A stretch of DNA of 64,000 bases. It comes from Moraxellaceae bacterium (lineage in GTDB: Bacteria; Pseudomonadota; Gammaproteobacteria; Pseudomonadales; Moraxellaceae). Location: positions 558,001 through 622,000 of the forward strand of contig JAUXVU010000023.1 in assembly GCA_030680295.1 (NCBI GenBank), read 5' to 3'. Positions 25,806-63,810 of the stretch are shown piece by piece. The position numbers were made by a program, and so were the translations under genes. Numbering within the stretch: position 1 is the stretch's first letter; each line of letters starts with the position of its first letter. A model generated the notes under the pieces. The model did no database searches. It was not told where the DNA came from and was given only the letters and a program-made list of their open reading frames with translations.

Positions 25806-26356
25806 CTATTGAGTTGTGGCTAGAGGCTGACTCCAGCTTAAACAGTGATAGCTACCCCAGCGAACAGCAGTGTCAGGACTGGATAAATGCGGTGTTTAAT
25901 TACCTAGCTGACAACGCCAGCTTATTACCAACTTCAGTTTATTTAGACGCATTAGACAGCAAGCGCTCTATGAGCGTTGCGGTGCGTGTGGTTGGCCAAG
26001 AAGAAGGTCGCACACTGAACTTGCAATATCGCGCACGTGATTACGCCACCAATGTCTTATCATTTCCAGCCGAGCTTCCTGAGTGGGCTAGTGATGAGTT
26101 AGATGAGCTGCCTCTAGGTGACTTAATAATCTGCGCACCCGTTGTCATACAAGAAGCACAACAGCAAGGTAAACTAGCTAACGATCACTGGTTACATTTA
26201 CTGGTGCATGGCTGCTTACATTTACTTGGCCTAGACCATATTGAAGACGAACAAGCAGATGCCATGGAAGCCTTAGAAGTTGCTATTTTGGCAGTCTGTG
26301 GTTGTAATAACCCCTATATTATTGTGCCCAGCGCCACTGCTGGTATTGAGGAATAA
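25802..26356 (+). CDS. ybeY: Endoribonuclease YbeY
   Basis: Zinc metalloendonuclease needed for 16S rRNA 3'-end maturation. The zinc motif H-x3-H-x5-H is seen in LVHGCLHLLGLDHIED. The family's fingerprint ATNVLSFP lies earlier. Using the ATG that overlaps the phoH stop (ATGA) the protein has 184 residues; the frame runs 45 bases further upstream but only within phoH. Confidence 0.96.
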   Translation: MTIELWLEADSSLNSDSYPSEQQCQDWINAVFNYLADNASLLPTSVYLDALDSKRSMSVAVRVVGQEEGRTLNLQYRARDYATNVLSFPAELPEWASDELDELPLGDLIICAPVVIQEAQQQGKLANDHWLHLLVHGCLHLLGLDHIEDEQADAMEALEVAILAVCGCNNPYIIVPSATAGIEE

Positions 26357-29783: not shown

Positions 29784-30722
29784 ATGAACATCTTGATCAC
29801 CGGTGGAACTGGATTTATTGGCAGCCAGCTGATTGCCCAACTATTGGCAGACGACGTAGAAGCACCCAAACAAATCACGGTACTCACTCGCTACCCAGAC
29901 AAAGCCCGTAACAAACTGGGTCAGCTTGATGGCGCCTCAAACATCAACTTCATACAGCGTTTAGATGAACTTGCTCGCGACACAGTTTTTCATGCTGTTA
30001 TCAATCTAGCCGGCGAAGGCATTGCTGATAAACCGTGGACACCACAACGTAAACGTGAATTAGCCGCTAGTCGCATTGCCTTAACCGAAGACTTGGTGGA
30101 TTGGATACGCCGCGCCAAACACAAACCATCCGTTTTAATTTCTGGCTCAGCTATCGGCTGGTATGGCAATCAGCAAGACCAAATTCTTGATGAAAACGCA
30201 ACAGCTCACAACGAATACGTTCATCAGCTCTGTCATTTATGGGAACAGGCCGCGCTCAATGCTGAACAATATGGATTGCGTGTTTGTCTTATTCGCACAG
30301 GTGTTGTGGTCGGGCCCAATGGTGGTTTTTTACGTCGTCTGCTCCCGGTTTTTGGCTTAGGTCTTGGTGGACCGTTAGGTCATGGCCAGCAATACCTATC
30401 TTGGGTTGCACTCGCTGACGTGGTCGCCGTCATTCAACACCTAGTAGCCGACAACAGCTTGACCGGCGTGTTTAATGTCACCGGCCCACGCCCCGTTACC
30501 AATCAAGAATTCACCAGCACTTTAGCCGGCTTGTTACGACGCCCTGCATTTTTCCGTGTGCCCGCCACGGTACTTAAACTGGCCATGGGTGAAATGTCGA
30601 CCCTATTGTTGGATGGCCAGCGCGTAGTGCCTAGTCGCCTATTACAAGAGCGCTTCCATTTTCAACACCCCACACTGGAATCCGCACTACGCGCGGCACT
30701 TAAAGCCCGCCGCAAACATTAG
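29784..30722 (+). CDS. TIGR01777 family NAD(P)-dependent epimerase (YfcH-like)
   Basis: Short-chain dehydrogenase/reductase fold. The N-terminal nucleotide motif is [12 protein letters not shown] (5-16), followed by [21 protein letters not shown], the hallmark of the TIGR01777/SulA-YfcH group, and [10 protein letters not shown] with the active-site Tyr region. The 312-residue length is normal. Biochemical function is unknown for the family. It lies between two COG0523 GTPases on the opposite strand and overlaps the second by 4 bases at the 3' end. Confidence 0.9.
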
Positions 30723-53533: not shown

Positions 53534-54183
53534 TGTCATTACCGGTGAACGTTAAATCGCTAGCTCAAGTGGACTACGAGCCCACTTGGCAAGCGATGCG
53601 TGACTTTACTGATAATCGCTCCGCTGACACCACAGATGAACTCTGGCTATTACAACACCCACCTGTCTACACCCAAGGTCAGGCAGGTAAGCCAGAACAT
53701 TTATTGCTGACCAAAGATATTCCCGTCATTCAGTCCGACCGAGGTGGCCAGGTCACCTATCACGGTCCAGGCCAGCTCGTGGGTTATCCGCTATTTGATT
53801 TAAGTCGTCTGAATCTTGGTCCACGTGCTTTTGTTGAGGCCGTTGAAGATGCGCTGGTGATTGCCCTGCAACAACTTGGCATAAACAGCGCGGTGGCTAA
53901 TCGAGATGCCCATGGCGTGTACATCGATGGGCGCAAAATCGCATCAATTGGCTTGCGCTTGCGCAAAGGATGTAGCTATCACGGCTTTTCCTTAAATGTA
54001 GACATGGATCTATCCCCCTTTTCAGGCATTAATCCTTGTGGTTATGCGGGTTTGAGCATGTGCCAAGTTGTCGACTTTGTCGCAGCGAATGACCAGCTCA
54101 TGGCTCGTGCAGAACAGGCTTGCCTGTATGGCCTTCAACAAACACTGCCCAACCTAGACTTTGGTCTAAAGCCAACGCACTAG
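53533..54183 (+). CDS. lipB: Octanoyl-[acyl-carrier-protein]-protein N-octanoyltransferase
   Basis: Transfers octanoate from ACP to lipoyl domains, the first step of lipoate synthesis. The 216-residue enzyme shows [15 protein letters not shown], the catalytic Lys in [20 protein letters not shown] and the nucleophilic Cys in [13 protein letters not shown]. Its ATG overlaps the ybeD stop (TAATG). lipA, often next, is missing here: the next gene is a histidine kinase. Confidence 0.97.
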
Positions 54184-54238: not shown

Positions 54239-57200
54239 ATGTCGCCGTGGTTATTACCGCTAATTTCCTTAGCTTACATTGCCCTGCTGTTTGCCGTGGC
54301 CTGGTGGGGTGACAAACGTAAACCACAACTCAGCCCCACGGCTCAGGGTATTTTATACAGTCTCACACTGGCAGTTTATTGCTCATCGTGGACGCTGTAT
54401 GGTGCCGTTGGTGCCGGCATCACCGGCGGACTAGCCTATCTGCCCATCTACCTAGGTCCGCTGCTGTTTATTTGGTTTGCGCGACCTTTGTTGGCGCGGC
54501 TAGTACTTAGCAGTAAAGCTCAGTCCATCACCAGCATTTCAGACTTTATTGCTGCACGATACGGTAAGGCCCAACACTTGGCGGCACTGGTTGCCATCAT
54601 CGCGTTAATTTCAGCCCTGCCCTATATTGCTCTTCAGCTAAAAGCAGTCTCCATGAGTGTTGATGTACTCAGCAAAGCCGGTCTAGGGAATGCCTTCCCA
54701 ACACAGGACACTGCTTTTTGGACGGGCTTATTTTTAGCGGCCCTAGCGATTTTATTTGGTACCCGACATATTGATGCTACCGAGCACCATCAAGGCCTAA
54801 TGCTGGCAGTTGCTTTAGAGTCCATTGTTAAGCTGATTGCTTTAGTAGCAGTGGCCTTGTTCGCTTGGTTTAGTTTGCAGAGCATGCCAACTGAATGGGC
54901 CAGTGACAGCCGCTTAGATAATTTGTTGCGCCCCGATCAACTGCCGAATGGCTTTTTAGCACAAACATTATTGGCATTTTTAGCCATCATCTGCCTGCCT
55001 CGACAGTTCCATGTTGCTGTTGTGGAGTGTGACGATGTGCGTGCTACCAGCAAAGCGCCTATATGGTTTGGTTCGTATTTAATTATTGTTGCCTGTGCCG
55101 TTATTCCAATTGCTTCACTGGCCCTATTACAACCACAAATAAACTTTCATCCAGATACTGCACTGCTGGTTCTGCCCTTAGCCGCCGGCCATGAAAGCTT
55201 AGCCATGTTAGCCTTTATCGGTGGACTTTCAGCAGCTGCCGGCATGGTAATTGTGGCATCGGTCGCACTATCAATCATGGTCTGTAATGATTTAGTTGTG
55301 CCTTTGCTGATGCGTTACCGCGGCTTTGGTACTAAACCTGTGCCGAAGCGCTTATTGATGATTCGTCGTCTGGCCATCATTGCCATCATTGCGCTGAGTT
55401 ATGGTTATTACCAACTCATTATGGAGTTCTCACAACTCGCCTCAGTTGGCTTGTTAGCCTTCTCCGCTGTCGCACAATTTGCACCGGCACTGATTGGCGG
55501 ACTACTTTGGCGAGGTGGCAGTAGACAGGGGGTTATCGCAGGCCTAATGGCTGGTTTTATAGTTTGGTTGTACACACTCATGCTGCCTGCCATGTTGCCG
55601 GCCATGGGTTATCACAGTGATTGGTTAATCCAAGGCCTATTTGGCCAAGCTTGGTTAAAACCACAAGCGCTGTTTTATTTAACTGGCTGGGATGCATTAA
55701 CACACGGCGTATTTTGGTCACTACTTATTAATGTTGGTTTATTTATTGTGATCTCTCTACGCTTTCGCCCTAGCATGCAAGAGCAACTTCAAGCTGGCCA
55801 GTTTTTAGATCCCTACAACATCAGCAGTGAAGAGCCAGCAAATCTCGCCTCACAACGACTCAACCTACAAGAACTACAAGATCTGGCGGCACGCATTTTA
55901 GGAAAGACCGCTGCCACAGAAGCCTTTGAACAGTTTGCCCGTGGCCGCATGCAGCAGCTGGATTTACGCGCACCTGCCAGCCGCACGTGGGTGCAGTTTG
56001 TTGAGCGCCTACTGGCATCCGCGATGGGCACCGCCTCTGCTCGTGCCCTACTTACCTCTGCTTTACGCGGCACTGGCCTCGAAATTGGTCAGGTCGTTGA
56101 CTTACTAGACCAAACCTCACAACAACAACGCTTTAATCGTGATGTGTTAAGCACCATGATGGAACATATTGTGCAAGGCATTAGTGTGGTTGATGCCGAC
56201 ATGCGTTTGGTTGCTTGGAACAGTCGTTATTTAGAACTTTTCGACTATCCACCTGGCATGGTTTATGAGGGCTGCCCGATTGCCGACCTCATTCGTTACA
56301 ACGCTGAGCAAGGTGAGTGTGGACCGGGTGAAATTGAAGACCATGTACGCCGTCGTGTGCAGCATTTACGTGATGGCAAACCACACCATATGGAGCGCAT
56401 ACGCCCTGACGGCCAAGTTCTGGAAATGCGCGGCCGCCCCATTGCAGGTGGAGGATTCGTCACGACGTTTGCTGACATTACCCACTTCAAAGAAGTGGAG
56501 CGCACCTTGGCTGACCGAGTTGCCCAGCGCACCAAGGAATTTGAACTAGCACGCGAGCAGGCAGAACAAGCCAACTTATCAAAAACACGCTTTTTGGCAG
56601 CTGCCAGTCACGACCTATTGCAGCCGATGAATGCTGCCAGACTGTTTTCGTCTGCACTCAATCAACACCCACAGCTCGATAACGAAGCCAGCATACTGGC
56701 CAAACAACTCGACAGCTCCTTGCGTGGTGCCGAAGAACTGTTATCAGCGCTGTTGGATATTTCAAGATTAGATGCGGGCGCGCTTAACCCTAATTTTTGC
56801 CCAATTGATTTAAGCAACTTGATTCAAGAGTTATGTGCACAAGTTGAGCCAGTAGCGAAACAACGGCAACTTCACCTTCGTATACGCTTACCCAAAATAG
56901 CCGCGTGGGTGATCAGTGACAAACAATGGCTGCGCCGAATTGTGCAAAATCTTTTGAGCAATGCCCTGCGTTATACCCGAACCGGCAGTGTTTTGGTTGC
57001 CATTCGTTGGCGCCAAAATCGTTGGCAGGTAGAGGTCAGGGACACCGGCCCCGGCATTCCTGAAGGCAAACTAAAACATATCTTTGAGGAGTTTCAACGC
57101 GGTGGTGAGTCTTCTCCTTGGGGAGAAAAAGGCATGGGCTTAGGCCTTGCTATTGTTGAGCGCATGGCACGAATTTTGGGTCATGGCATTGCTGTGCGCT

Positions 57201-57658
57201 CAGCATCAGGCCGTGGCGCCTGTTTTAGCTTAAGCCTTGAGCGCACTGAAGAGGCGGTAGGGCTGAGCGTAGAAAGCGCCAATGAATCATCTCTTCAGAC
57301 CAGCGAACTCAATGGTCTGCGCGTATTGTGCATTGATAACGAGCCAGCCATTTTAGCTGGCATGCAAGCTCTGCTAAGTCGATGGGGCTGCATTGTCACG
57401 TTAGCCAGTACAGGACTGGAAGCTGAGCAGGCTTTGTCTACTAGCAATGCCCAAGTCATTTTGTCTGACTATCACTTGGCAGATGATGAAGATGGCTTGG
57501 TGCTGCTCATTCGACTTGCGAAAGGAAGAGTTGGTGCATTAGTCACCGCTGATCACAGTGATGAAGTGGCACTCACCGTTAAGCAAGCGGGCTTAGGACT
57601 ATTGCGCAAACCATTAAAGCCTGCAGCACTGCGCGCATTTCTTAGCGCAAACTTATAG
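54239..57658 (+). CDS. crbS: CrbS-like SLC5 transporter / hybrid histidine kinase
   Basis: Likely the sensor of an acetate-switch two-component system (CrbS in Vibrio, MxtR in Pseudomonas). The 1139-residue protein has an N-terminal Na+/solute symporter (SLC5) domain of about 13 membrane segments (1-505), a short STAC-like linker (535-620), a PAS domain (635-750; VQGISVVDADMRLVAWN), HisKA with phospho-acceptor His791 (AAASHDLLQPMNAARL), HATPase (N box IVQNLLSNALRYT, DTGPGIP, GMGLGLAIVE; 890-1000), and a C-terminal receiver with Asp1077 (ILSDYHL) and Lys1124 (LRKPL). The cognate regulator and acs lie 2 kb downstream on the other strand, with two unrelated genes between. Confidence 0.92.
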   Translation: MSPWLLPLISLAYIALLFAVAWWGDKRKPQLSPTAQGILYSLTLAVYCSSWTLYGAVGAGITGGLAYLPIYLGPLLFIWFARPLLARLVLSSKAQSITSISDFIAARYGKAQHLAALVAIIALISALPYIALQLKAVSMSVDVLSKAGLGNAFPTQDTAFWTGLFLAALAILFGTRHIDATEHHQGLMLAVALESIVKLIALVAVALFAWFSLQSMPTEWASDSRLDNLLRPDQLPNGFLAQTLLAFLAIICLPRQFHVAVVECDDVRATSKAPIWFGSYLIIVACAVIPIASLALLQPQINFHPDTALLVLPLAAGHESLAMLAFIGGLSAAAGMVIVASVALSIMVCNDLVVPLLMRYRGFGTKPVPKRLLMIRRLAIIAIIALSYGYYQLIMEFSQLASVGLLAFSAVAQFAPALIGGLLWRGGSRQGVIAGLMAGFIVWLYTLMLPAMLPAMGYHSDWLIQGLFGQAWLKPQALFYLTGWDALTHGVFWSLLINVGLFIVISLRFRPSMQEQLQAGQFLDPYNISSEEPANLASQRLNLQELQDLAARILGKTAATEAFEQFARGRMQQLDLRAPASRTWVQFVERLLASAMGTASARALLTSALRGTGLEIGQVVDLLDQTSQQQRFNRDVLSTMMEHIVQGISVVDADMRLVAWNSRYLELFDYPPGMVYEGCPIADLIRYNAEQGECGPGEIEDHVRRRVQHLRDGKPHHMERIRPDGQVLEMRGRPIAGGGFVTTFADITHFKEVERTLADRVAQRTKEFELAREQAEQANLSKTRFLAAASHDLLQPMNAARLFSSALNQHPQLDNEASILAKQLDSSLRGAEELLSALLDISRLDAGALNPNFCPIDLSNLIQELCAQVEPVAKQRQLHLRIRLPKIAAWVISDKQWLRRIVQNLLSNALRYTRTGSVLVAIRWRQNRWQVEVRDTGPGIPEGKLKHIFEEFQRGGESSPWGEKGMGLGLAIVERMARILGHGIAVRSASGRGACFSLSLERTEEAVGLSVESANESSLQTSELNGLRVLCIDNEPAILAGMQALLSRWGCIVTLASTGLEAEQALSTSNAQVILSDYHLADDEDGLVLLIRLAKGRVGALVTADHSDEVALTVKQAGLGLLRKPLKPAALRAFLSANL

Positions 57659-58923: not shown

Positions 58924-59669
58924 TGAGTGCACAAATCAATGCTTTACTGGGTGGGCAACAGCGGCCCCACTTCTGGAATAATCTGGGCTTATGGTCAGCG
59001 AGCGACGACTATGACAATGCCTGTAGCGCACTTGCGCATGTACACGCTCAGGCTATCGCTTTAAATCCACAAGACCATTTAATTGACTTAGCCTGCGGCA
59101 GTGGCGCCAGCCTCAAACTCTGGCAACAGCACTATGGGCTTGAGCACGCCATTGGCTTAGAAAAGACCATCGCTACGCAATCAGCCACTGCCATAATACG
59201 TGGTCGATTTGATCAATTGCCGCTGCCAAGGGCTTTGCAAGATCGCTCGTTTGATGCCGCCATTTGCATTGATGCCGCCTATCACGCGCAATCAATTTCC
59301 GCTTTTTTAAATACCGCGAAAACCGTATTGGTAAGCCAAGGACGATTGGTGTTTAGTACAGTAGTTGGTCCTGATAACTCCCCCGCTAAGCGGCTTGATT
59401 TGCGTTTGGCCGGCATTCCACATGCCAGCCAAGTGATTTATCAAGCATTAAACCAAGCACTAGCTGCGGACTGGGAAAACATAGAAATTAATGTATTAAG
59501 TTCAGTTTTTTCAGGCTTTGCCGAGCATGTTGCACGGCGTGAGGCGCAGTTAACTTGGCGGGATAAATTAAGCCCATCATGGCTGAAAATTTTGGCCACT
59601 GCCGCATTATGCAAACGGCTACAAGCAGCCAACTTTGACTATGTGTTAATCAGTGCACAACGGCGCTAA
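58923..59669 (+). CDS. Class I SAM-dependent methyltransferase
   Basis: The 248-residue enzyme has the SAM motif LIDLACGSGASLKLW (about 49-63), then DAAICIDAAYHAQSI in the motif IV region, and a C-terminal part (VARREAQLTWRDKLSPSWLK) with no clear match. Its GTG start at 58923 overlaps the oxidoreductase stop. The frame is open to 58854 (ATG), but that lies inside the oxidoreductase. Target unknown; the coupled FAD enzyme suggests a small molecule or lipid. It converges on the response regulator with a 4-base overlap. Confidence 0.8.
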   Translation: MSAQINALLGGQQRPHFWNNLGLWSASDDYDNACSALAHVHAQAIALNPQDHLIDLACGSGASLKLWQQHYGLEHAIGLEKTIATQSATAIIRGRFDQLPLPRALQDRSFDAAICIDAAYHAQSISAFLNTAKTVLVSQGRLVFSTVVGPDNSPAKRLDLRLAGIPHASQVIYQALNQALAADWENIEINVLSSVFSGFAEHVARREAQLTWRDKLSPSWLKILATAALCKRLQAANFDYVLISAQRR

Positions 59670-60334
59670 TCTTCTTCCACTACATCCACAATACGCATAG
59701 CCGGATCAAGCTGTAAGCGCGCTGCCGCCACCACCGCCTGTGTGCGATTCGATGCACCAAGCTTTTTCAGAATTGCTGTCATATGGGCCTTGATGGTGGC
59801 TTCAGAAACATTGAGCTCATACGCAATTTGCTTATTTAATAAGCCATCAGCCAACATCATCAAAACCCGAAACTGCTGAGGTGTTAACTCACGTATACGA
59901 CGAGCAATATCAGCTTCTTCATTGGCTAAAGGATGCACTGTGCCAACCGCGCTAGCTGGCAACCAAACATCACCTTCTAACACCCGGCTAACTGCCTTAG
60001 ACATCTCATCTAAGGACAATGATTTAGGGATATAACCACTGGCACCATGTGCAATCGCACGACGCATTACACCCGGCTCTTCATTGCCGGACACCACAAT
60101 GACCGGCAAGGTAGGATATCGTGCACGCACATGCACCAAGCCGGTAAAGCCTGATGCCCCCGGCATATGCAAGTCCAACAAGAGCAGGTCTGGTTCGTCA
60201 GTTTGCTCTAGTAAGTTTTGCAAACTGGCCGTGCTATCCGCCTCTAGCATTTCAGCCGCAGGAAACAGGCTAGACACTGCACGTTTGAGCGCATCTCGAA
60301 ACAGGGGATGGTCATCCGCAATGACAAACTTCAT
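59666..60334 (-). CDS. crbR: CrbR-like response regulator (NarL/FixJ family)
   Basis: The 222-residue regulator has a receiver domain (Asp54 in LLLLDLHMPG, with ADDH at 6-9 and Lys104 in YIPKSLS) and a C-terminal LuxR-type helix-turn-helix (RELTPQQFRVLMMLADGLLNKQIA, VSEATIKAHMTAILKKLG; 150-215). With the CrbS-like kinase 2 kb away and acs immediately beside it on the same strand, it is likely the transcription activator of acs (CrbR in Vibrio, ErdR in Pseudomonas). It lies downstream of acs, 30 bases after the acs stop. Confidence 0.88.
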   Translation of the reverse strand: MKFVIADDHPLFRDALKRAVSSLFPAAEMLEADSTASLQNLLEQTDEPDLLLLDLHMPGASGFTGLVHVRARYPTLPVIVVSGNEEPGVMRRAIAHGASGYIPKSLSLDEMSKAVSRVLEGDVWLPASAVGTVHPLANEEADIARRIRELTPQQFRVLMMLADGLLNKQIAYELNVSEATIKAHMTAILKKLGASNRTQAVVAAARLQLDPAMRIVDVVEED

Positions 60335-60364
60335 GTCTCGTACTCCCCGTGCTCATGCATGCAT

Positions 60365-62308
60365 TTAGGCCGACTTGCGCCCGTTGATTAAACTCTCTAC
60401 CACTGACGGATCCGCCAGCGTCGAGATATCACCTAAACCGTCAAACTCATTAGCGGCAATTTTGCGCAAAATACGACGCATGATTTTGCCTGAGCGCGTT
60501 TTCGGTAAACCCGGCGCCCACTGAATCATATCGGGCGCGGCAATCGGACCAATTTCTTTACGGACATGCGCCACCAACTCTTTACGCAAAGCCTCAGACG
60601 GTTCAATCCCTGCCTGCAGCGTGACATAACTGAAGATTCCCTGACCTTTAATGTCATGTGGAAAACCCACTACAGCGGCTTCCGCAACGGCAGGATGAGA
60701 CACCAGCGCACTCTCAACTTCAGCGGTGCCCATGCGATGGCCTGAAACATTTAAGACGTCATCAATACGGCCGGTAATCCAGTAGTAGTGGTCTTCATCA
60801 CGGCGCGCGCCATCACCCGTGGTATAGAAACCATGGAAGGTTTTGAAATAGGTGTCAATAAAACGCTGATGATCACCATAGACCGTGCGCATTTGGCCCG
60901 GCCACGAATCGGCAATCACTAAGTTGCCTTCACAAGCACCTTCCATGACATTGCCTTCGTTATCTAAAATCACAGGGCAAATACCAAAATAGGGACGTGT
61001 TGCCGAGCCCGGCTTTAGCGCTGTGGCACCCGCTAACGGCGAAATTAACGCACCACCCGTTTCTGTTTGCCACCACGTATCAACAATTGGGCACTGGCCA
61101 TTACCCACCACACGGTGATACCAGTTCCAAGCCTCCGGGTTGATCGGCTCACCCACTGAGCCCAGCAAGCGCAGACTGTCACGGCGACTGACCAATACCG
61201 GCGCATCACCCTCACGCATCATGGCGCGAATGGCGGTTGGTGCCGTAAATAAGATCGTGACCTTGTGCTTATCAACCACCTGACCAATACGAGACCAGTC
61301 CGGATACTGCGGCACACCTTCAAACATAACCGTAGTGGAGCCGTTTGATAGCGGGCCATAGAGCGTATAGGTATGACCGGTTACCCACCCCACATCGGCC
61401 GTACACCAGAACACATCATCAGGACGAATATCGAAGACATTGGCGTAAGTGCTGGTGGCATACACCAAATAACCACCGGTGGTATGCAGCACACCCTTTG
61501 GTTTGCCAGTAGAACCCGAGGTATACAAAATAAAAAGTGGTGCCTCGGCATTCATCGCTGTAGCTGGGCACTCAGCGGCGACACCAGCCATCGCTTCGTG
61601 ATACCAAACATCCCGACCATTTACCCATTCAACTTTACCGCCAGTGCGTTTAACCACCACGACGGTTTTAACAATTGCACCAGCTGCTGTAGCAACAGCA
61701 GCATCAACATTTGCCTTTAGCGGGATACCTTTACCACCGCGTAAACCTTCATCAGCAGTAATCACGATGGTGGATTGGCAGTCATCAATACGACCTGCCA
61801 ACGCATCTGGCGAGAAACCACCAAACACCACCGAGTGCACAGCACCAATTCGAGTACAGGCCAACATAGCCACGGCCGCTTCAGGAATCATCGGCATATA
61901 AATGGTGACACGATCACCGGCTTTAACACCTTGTGCTTTTAAAACATTGGCAAAGCGACAAACATCCGCATGCAATTCACGATAACTAATCCGACGGCTA
62001 TCAGCAGGATTATCACCTTCCCAGATAATCGCGGTTTTATCACCGCGCTCGGCCAAATGACGATCTAAGCAGTTAGCGGAAACATTAAGCTCGCCGTCTT
62101 CGTACCAGCGGATATGTAGGTCTTCTGGTTGATAGGAAACATCTTTGACCTTAGTAAATGGCTTCATCCATTCGACGATTTGACCTTCATCAGCCCAGAA
62201 CGCTTCCGGATTCTGAATCGACTCTTCATAACGACGTAGATAATCCGCTTCGGTATGACGAGCACCGGTATACGTGGAAGGAACAGGATGAATCGTTGAG
62301 TCAGACAT
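60365..62308 (-). CDS. acs: Acetyl-CoA synthetase
   Basis: Makes acetyl-CoA from acetate, ATP and CoA. The 647-residue enzyme has the ANL motifs [19 protein letters not shown] (about 265-283), [29 protein letters not shown] and [11 protein letters not shown], where Lys608 is the residue acetylated in this family to shut the enzyme off. TGAGGTAG precedes the ATG. It shares a 165-base divergent promoter region with the porin gene. Confidence 0.98.
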
Positions 62309-62374
62309 GCTACTACCTCAGATTTTTTCTATTTTAATGTGTTCGAGTATGGCCAATCATAACCACAAAGCTAG

Positions 62375-62418
62375 TTAGTCTTTAGTCGTAAGACATTCGG
62401 CTACCGACCAAAGACTAA
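62375..62418. promoter_or_regulatory. Inverted repeat between acs and the porin gene, candidate CrbR operator
   Basis: Arms of 14 bases (62375-62388 and 62405-62418) are inverted complements with one mismatch; the outer nine bases, TTAGTCTTT and AAAGACTAA, are perfect. The spacer is 16 bases. On the minus strand a -10-like TATGAT (62361-62356) places the acs -35 within the left arm; on the plus strand a -10-like TATACC (62442-62447) places the porin -35 just beyond the right arm. Neither -35 is near consensus, as expected of activator-dependent promoters. The link to CrbR rests on position. Confidence 0.5.
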
Positions 62419-62473
62419 TATCAGTGATGATGCGGGCGCGCTATACCACTCCTACCTCACCTAAGGAGTAGGA

Positions 62474-63760
62474 ATGATGCGTCTACCTAGAATGTTGCCA
62501 AAAAAGACTGCCATTGCATTAGCACTTTTACCACTCGCATTTAATGCAAATGCTGATATGAGCAGTGAAATTGACGCGTTAAAAGCGCGACTTAATCAAC
62601 TAGAAAGCCAACTAGCGGAGCAGCGTACTGCTGACACTAAGCGCCCAGCAAATGCTACTACTAAGCCCAGCTTAAGTATTGGTGATACCCAATTTCAAGT
62701 GGGTGGTTATATCAAAGTCGACGCCATGATGAGTCGCTACTCTGCAGGAGAAGTAGCGGGCACCTCGCCAGCGCGCGACTTCCATGTGCCCTCAGCTACA
62801 CCCGTAGGCAATGGCGCGTCCAGCCAAGTATTTGATGCCCATGCCCAGCAAACACGCGTTTTTCTGAAAACCACAACCGCTACCGAGTCTGGCAAAAACA
62901 TTAATGGTTATATTGAAATTGACTTTTTAAGCCCAGCGCGTGGTAACGAACGCGTTACCAATAACTATGATCCGGGTCTACGCCATGCTTACTTAAGTTA
63001 TGGCAATTGGTTGGTTGGACAAACGTGGACCACATTTCAAGACCTAGGCGCTCTGCCAGAAACAGTGGACTTCGTTGGTGCATCTGACGGCACAACGTTT
63101 GGTCGACAACCACAAGTTCGTTATAGCAAAGGTAACTTCCAAGTCGCACTGGAAAATCCAGAGTCATTTATCAAGCCAGAAACTGGTGCAAGCGTCGACA
63201 CTGACGATAACTCGCTGCCCGACCTAGTGGCACGTTATACCCACAAAGCTGATTTTGGTCATGTCAGTGTTGCTGCCTTGGGTCGTCAAATAAAAACCAA
63301 AAACAGCGGTGCCACAAGCGATACCGTGATGGGTGGTGGTGTCAGTTTTTCGGGCAAGGTAAAAGTCGGTACACGTGACGACATTCGTTTCATGCTTACC
63401 CATGGCAGTGGTATTGGCCGTTATGTTGGTTTGGGTACAATTACTGATGCCAATATGGTCAATGGCAAACTCAAGGCCAATGATGTCAGTGCCGGTTATC
63501 TTACTTACCGACATTTCTGGACCGATAAACTACGCTCAAGCCTACAAGTATCGGGCCTTATGGCAGATAACAAAGGCGTAATGCTTGCAGATGCAATAAC
63601 GACAACCAAGAAAAACGTTTCAGGCCTCACCAACTTAATTTATAGCGTAACGCCGAAGCTAGAAATTGGCGCTGAATACCTACACAGCAAACGCAGCGTT
63701 GAAAGTAGTGATGATGGAACGCTTGATCGACTACAGGTCATGGCCAAATACAGTTTTTAA
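62474..63760 (+). CDS. DcaP-like trimeric outer-membrane porin
   Basis: The 428-residue protein has a signal peptide (1-27, ANADMSS), a short N-terminal coiled coil (EIDALKARLNQLESQLAEQ), then beta-barrel strands (FQVGGYIKVDAMMSRYS, YIEIDFL, WLVGQTWTTFQDLGALPETVDFVG, ARYTHKADFGHVSV) ending in the outer-membrane signal MAKYSF (terminal Phe). The coiled coil and the QTWTTF loop region recall DcaP of Acinetobacter, which admits dicarboxylates. AAGGAG precedes two tandem ATGs. Divergent to acs, it may be controlled with it. A strong terminator follows. Confidence 0.88.
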   Translation: MMRLPRMLPKKTAIALALLPLAFNANADMSSEIDALKARLNQLESQLAEQRTADTKRPANATTKPSLSIGDTQFQVGGYIKVDAMMSRYSAGEVAGTSPARDFHVPSATPVGNGASSQVFDAHAQQTRVFLKTTTATESGKNINGYIEIDFLSPARGNERVTNNYDPGLRHAYLSYGNWLVGQTWTTFQDLGALPETVDFVGASDGTTFGRQPQVRYSKGNFQVALENPESFIKPETGASVDTDDNSLPDLVARYTHKADFGHVSVAALGRQIKTKNSGATSDTVMGGGVSFSGKVKVGTRDDIRFMLTHGSGIGRYVGLGTITDANMVNGKLKANDVSAGYLTYRHFWTDKLRSSLQVSGLMADNKGVMLADAITTTKKNVSGLTNLIYSVTPKLEIGAEYLHSKRSVESSDDGTLDRLQVMAKYSF

Positions 63761-63768
63761 AAAAGCAC

Positions 63769-63810
63769 AAAGCCTCGTTAGTTCAATAGCTTACTAACGA
63801 GGCTTTTTGT
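63769..63810 (+). terminator. Rho-independent terminator of the porin gene
   Basis: A perfect 14-bp stem (63769-63782 with 63793-63806, AAAGCCTCGTTAGT / ACTAACGAGGCTTT) with a 10-base loop is followed by TTGT; the stem's own TTT adds to a five-T run. It starts 8 bases after the porin stop. Confidence 0.9.

Follow-up and report, generated by a model that had tools for sequence, protein, structure and literature searches.

Predicted back-to-back CrbR operators between acs and a DcaP-family porin gene in a Moraxellaceae bacterium

Genes of the acs–porin locus

The 64-kb stretch of DNA analyzed here (the window) comes from a genome that its nearest relatives place in the Perlucidibaca/Paraperlucidibaca group of the Moraxellaceae. 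Two divergent genes are separated by a gap of 165 nt. On the minus strand lies acs (60365–62308), whose product matches acetate–CoA ligase (TIGR02188, 998.8 bits; cutoff 725), and on the plus strand lies a gene for a DcaP-family outer-membrane porin (62474–63760; PF19577, 2.4e-26, 93.1 bits; cutoff 27). The gene crbR/erdR (59666–60334, minus strand) follows 30 nt downstream from acs on the same strand and encodes a LuxR-type response regulator with a receiver domain and a LuxR-type HTH. Its best NCBIfam match is ErdR (NF041830, 2.8e-71), with a score of 239.6 that falls below the curated cutoff of 390 bits. No terminator-like site was found in the 30-nt gap between acs and crbR, and thus the two genes probably form one operon. 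The same adjacency (59666–62308 in the window) is present in Perlucidibaca-group and Motiliproteus-type relatives. These arrangements suggest that crbR is probably expressed from its own target promoter.

The likely partner sensor is encoded by crbS (54239–57658, plus strand), a putative symporter-domain hybrid histidine kinase gene with PAS, HisKA, HATPase and receiver domains. The N-terminus of CrbS is hydrophobic and appears symporter-like when the sequence is read directly; an SLC5 symporter domain is not called by Pfam. An actP gene was considered as a co-target and rejected, since its match in the genome is a weak SSS one (TIGR02711, 126 bits; cutoff 1099) and a box of the kind described below was found near actP in just one of four relatives scanned. 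Among the genomes compared, a good ActP acetate symporter is absent in G000, G002 and G004 and present in G001, G003, G005 and G006.

The name DcaP derives from dicarboxylate genes. The porin of the window matches the Acinetobacter baumannii DcaP structure (PDB 6eus) with 1.2e-16 by sequence and 2.3e-19 by fold, which is its best match in the PDB. Its structural model, of moderate confidence (pLDDT 67.5), contains a barrel and an N-terminal periplasmic helix as in 6eus. The protein is a true DcaP relative.

Each arm of the intergenic inverted repeat resembles an ACTU box

The acs–porin gap contains an inverted repeat at 62375–62418. Its left arm (62375–62388) and right arm (62405–62418) are 14 nt each, are complementary at 13 of 14 positions (93%), and are separated by a 16-nt spacer. 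The original prediction, which described two 14-base arms with a single mismatch located between divergent acs and DcaP-like porin genes, is confirmed on both points. A search of both strands of the 2.6-Mb genome finds the pattern TTAGTCTTT N20–30 AAAGACTAA a single time and its reversed control not at all. A search of the whole window for repeats with 14-nt arms, no more than one mismatch and a loop of up to 30 yields two examples, 62375–62418 and 63770–63805. Eight simulated first-order Markov windows gave 0, 0, 0, 1, 0, 0, 0 and 0 such repeats, and so they are rarer by chance than observed. The other repeat, at 63770–63805, is nearly perfect, has 14-nt arms, lies 10 bases past the porin stop codon, and is probably the porin terminator.

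In Pseudomonas fluorescens, activation of acs by CrbR requires a 17-bp imperfect repeat, termed the ACTU motif, at −52 to −36, which leaves a 23-nt gap to the −10 element at −12 (Sepulveda and Lupas, PMC5715377). Published sites from this species include TACTACCATCGTCGAAT (acs), TACGACTAAAGTCTAAA and TACTACCAAAGTCTAAT (PMC5715377). Each arm of the repeat in the window corresponds to a complete 17-bp ACTU box directed at the adjacent gene: TACGACTAAAGACTAAC for acs (62390 to 62374, minus strand), at a position that is kept in relatives, and ACCGACCAAAGACTAAT for the porin (62403–62419, plus strand). Both are imperfect inverted repeats close to TANGACYAANGTCNAAT.

Matrix scores of the two boxes were ranked among all 127,968 window positions. 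The acs box ranks 1 with a matrix of nine published P. fluorescens sites and 4 with a matrix of five, and it scores 14.2 bits with a further matrix. The porin box ranks 36 and 30 with the nine-site and five-site matrices. It is joint first with a matrix that combines published sites with acs-side sites from other genomes and draws on neither porin sites nor the window. The porin box is also the second-best match to a sequence model (R1) that excludes the window, in a heuristic search that scored 150 of 2316 candidates in the same genome; in relatives of the genus, the best matches in the heuristic search with R1 are acs/porin boxes. A simple regular expression overlooked boxes that the matrices detect. 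Both boxes in the window carry A in place of the T of GTC, a position where relatives often have G, and they are weaker than those of relatives (14–15 versus 17–23 bits).

Other ACTU-like matches were found in the window. One at 30059–30075 (15.8 bits) falls within a gene's coding sequence and was discarded as chance, as were matches at 26044 and 48012. The top genome-wide match to the box model, among the 150 of 2316 candidates scored, is located between genes for isocitrate dehydrogenase and pseudouridine synthase (L100:1501–1517; G000:C36:623309–623325). In P. fluorescens, icd is an ACTU prediction of low significance (PMC5715377).

A further probable ACTU box (54153–54170; 13.1–13.4 bits) lies ∼70–85 nt upstream of crbS, in the end of lipB. 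A box at about −90 of crbS is conserved in Acinetobacter, Alkanindiges and Perlucidibaca, including most loci of the first two genera. This recurrence in the Moraxellaceae suggests that the CrbS sensor may itself be under CrbR-box control and therefore autoregulated. At most Acinetobacter loci, the matrix detects no strong box ahead of acs.

Box-to-promoter distances are fixed and box-to-box distances vary

The predicted −10 elements are CATACT for acs (62346–62351, minus strand, read 62351–62346) and TATACC for the porin (62442–62447, plus strand), and each is located 22 nt past its box. Both boxes recur in seven Perlucidibaca-group relatives, where the box-to-(−10) gap is a constant 21–23 nt. 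The acs element CATACTCG (ATACTCG in L007 and L008) is kept at this distance in all seven, and the porin element TATAC is found at 22–23 nt in six. In L006 (Amnimonas), the porin box is weak and no recognizable −10 element is present at the expected distance. Across the order, the gap has a peak at 22–23 nt on the acs and porin sides alike. Both boxes of the window thus lie directly upstream of predicted promoters, as ACTU boxes do, with a 22-nt gap to a conserved −10 element.

A consensus scan calls a sigma-70-type promoter at neither site, which agrees with the earlier proposal that neither promoter has a consensus −35 element. That proposal also had the right arm abutting the porin −35 region and the left arm overlapping the acs −35 region. 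If the −10 elements kept in relatives are taken as the reference, the two arms are placed symmetrically. The right arm lies as proposed, whereas the left arm only abuts this region.

The distance between the two boxes behaves differently from the box-to-(−10) gap. In the window and the seven relatives, box-to-box gaps are 12, 13, 34, 35, 44, 46, 63 and 75 nt, and the order-wide range is 1–184 nt with the exception of L175, whose nominal partner box is a weak site inside galE. At one locus (L215, 3065–4337), galE is positioned between the acs and porin boxes; although ∼1.2 kb apart, the boxes remain next to acs and the porin gene, respectively. Given the fixed box-to-(−10) gap, the variable box-to-box gap and the galE case, these comparisons argue that 62375–62418 is two independent, back-to-back predicted CrbR operators, one for each promoter. 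A long repeat is apparent because divergent copies of one directional motif face opposite promoters. In the intergenic regions of L002, L003 and L006, a conserved GGTCTTAGAGAC element precedes the porin box, and it looks like an overlapping partial box that faces the opposite way.

Boxes mark one clade of DcaP porins

A search for PF19577 in 293 genomes of the order yields matches in 82 genomes and in 41 of 118 genera. Upstream regions of 90 of these genes contain a box of at least 15 bits in 46 cases, whereas none is found with a reversed matrix or inside the gene. The divergent neighbor of box-bearing porins is mostly acs and otherwise usually crbR. When 74 porins were placed in a tree, a single 45-member clade (support 98/94) took in 43 of the 45 box-bearing rows, and the remaining two members of this clade score 12.9 and 14.7 bits. 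The clade spans 11 families, within which genomes of the same genus are not independent.

A stricter test used a matrix built solely from seven published P. fluorescens sites, with a threshold of at least 10 bits. At least one box is present for 44 of 45 clade porins and two distinct boxes for 31, compared with 5 and 0 of 45 for the reversed-motif control. The other DcaP genes (n = 45) have one box in five cases and two in one. Linkage to the regulator gene follows the same division: crbR lies within 9 kb of the porin in 43 of 43 clade members checked versus 0 of 29 other DcaP porins. In G167, a clade genome outside the 43, crbR is directly divergent from the porin. Five genomes carry two DcaP paralogues, and boxes are present only at the crbR-linked copy.

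At most loci, the intergenic region of the porin also borders acs or crbR, and so some of the "porin" boxes serve the neighbor. Since these shared regions leave the porin-upstream counts partly ambiguous, paired boxes, −10 spacing, the galE locus, single-box acs genes and paralogues were compared. The paired and oriented boxes (31 of 45 at the strict threshold) argue against boxes that belong to the neighbor alone. The pairing of acs and porin boxes in 11 families indicates that opening of an outer-membrane channel would be a long-conserved part of the acetate switch.

Alternative explanations

The arms are nearly perfectly symmetric in the window, which is the arrangement expected if a single activator complex bound the 44-bp repeat as one long palindrome with two half-sites. 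The original prediction likewise treated the repeat as one element bound as a unit. This part is not supported: The distance between boxes spans 12–75 nt among close relatives and reaches 1.2 kb around galE in L215, and either arm by itself matches an entire operator of the kind tested by experiment. The varying spacing refutes the single palindrome as a general rule, and we consider it highly improbable. The repeat could instead form the stem of an RNA or DNA hairpin with a 16-nt loop, acting as a terminator or attenuator with only an incidental match to the motif. However, there is no T-run, no terminator is called at the repeat and the inter-arm distance is not conserved. Moreover, the repeat is upstream of both predicted start points and would be in neither transcript, which makes the hairpin vanishingly improbable.

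Because the intergenic region is common to both genes, both boxes might serve acs as tandem or co-operative CrbR sites, with the porin a mere neighbor. Motiliproteus sp. (L009) fits this arrangement, as its acs has two boxes and no DcaP porin was found. However, acs genes without an adjoining porin usually have a single box (G006 and the five Oceanospirillales-type loci L010, L011, L017, L064 and L079), and the second box lies at a fixed 22–23 nt from a −10 element directed toward the porin. Furthermore, the porin box remains with the porin in L215, and it is still present at loci where crbR rather than acs is the divergent gene. We judge that this explanation has a small chance of being correct. 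The chance is very small that the boxes are used by a different LuxR-type or other regulator. CrbR binding here is predicted, and each genome encodes many other response regulators, but the motif is that of CrbR and crbR is near every clade porin checked.

A model for joint control by CrbR

The explanation that best fits these data is that the repeat is a divergent pair of CrbR operators that drives acs (with crbR) and the porin, and that the DcaP subclade of this porin has a conserved place in the CrbS/R regulon. From the sequence comparisons, we consider this very probable. That CrbR controls acs and the porin together, as originally proposed, is supported by the motif and by the comparison with relatives. 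Absence of the repeat upstream of acs in close relatives had been named as evidence against it; in its essential part the proposal stands, as both boxes are found in all porin-bearing Perlucidibaca-group relatives and across the order.

The genomes directly show the boxes, their spacing, their conservation and a porin gene linked to acs and crbR. If CrbR binds these boxes in this organism, then CrbS would phosphorylate and activate CrbR, and dimers of phosphorylated CrbR would occupy the two boxes, each directly ahead of a promoter without a good −35 element. Bound CrbR would recruit RNA polymerase to the −10 element centered ∼25 nt downstream. The left box would switch on acs, whose product makes acetyl-CoA, and also crbR by read-through; the rising level of crbR may constitute positive feedback. 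The right box would switch on the DcaP-family porin, and its substrate could then cross the outer membrane. Both genes would be induced by acetate, and this regulation suggests that the porin may carry acetate or another short carboxylate.

A broader hypothesis is that the DcaP clade is a dedicated outer-membrane channel for acetate (short carboxylates) and that, in much of the order, it belongs to the ancestral core of the CrbS/R regulon, such that the acetate switch controls outer-membrane permeation in addition to activation. We regard this as moderately probable.

Comparison with known systems

Known ACTU or CrbS–CrbR (MxtR–ErdR) targets are acs, actP, scpC (pflu0110) and pflu5625 (PMC5715377, PMC8402216, PMC5436829). 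The outputs known to date function in the cytoplasm or the inner membrane. If a porin is indeed a conserved output, outer-membrane permeability would be tuned together with acetate use. This would also provide a function for an uncharacterized DcaP clade of 11 families and make its substrate directly testable. Since the solved DcaP is an A. baumannii channel, metabolic control of DcaP-type channels may also bear on which other compounds enter the cell.

A literature search on the CrbR/ErdR regulon found no porin among the sources within its reach, which leaves aside many subscription journals, and a porin as an output of the acetate switch is apparently unreported so far. A related case is the PP_2662 porin of the ped cluster of Pseudomonas putida, which, according to the portions of the report consulted, is induced by ethanol and methanol along with the ped genes (PMC12997753). 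It is a porin co-expressed with a pathway for a C2 substrate, as is predicted for the porin described here. In those portions, ErdR is not named as a direct regulator of PP_2662, unlike the CrbR control predicted here (PMC12997753).

The window porin resembles A. baumannii DcaP in sequence, in fold, and in its N-terminal helix and barrel, but it belongs to a distinct clade linked to acs and crbR. The locus resembles the CrbS–CrbR (MxtR–ErdR) acetate switch in its motif, the placement of the motif before the promoter, the regulator family and the acs target. In contrast, the porin target and the divergent acs–porin operator pair are found only here when compared with the switch as published. 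The kind of operator is therefore already known, whereas what appears to be new is that a porin clade is a conserved target and that the two operators are laid out divergently.
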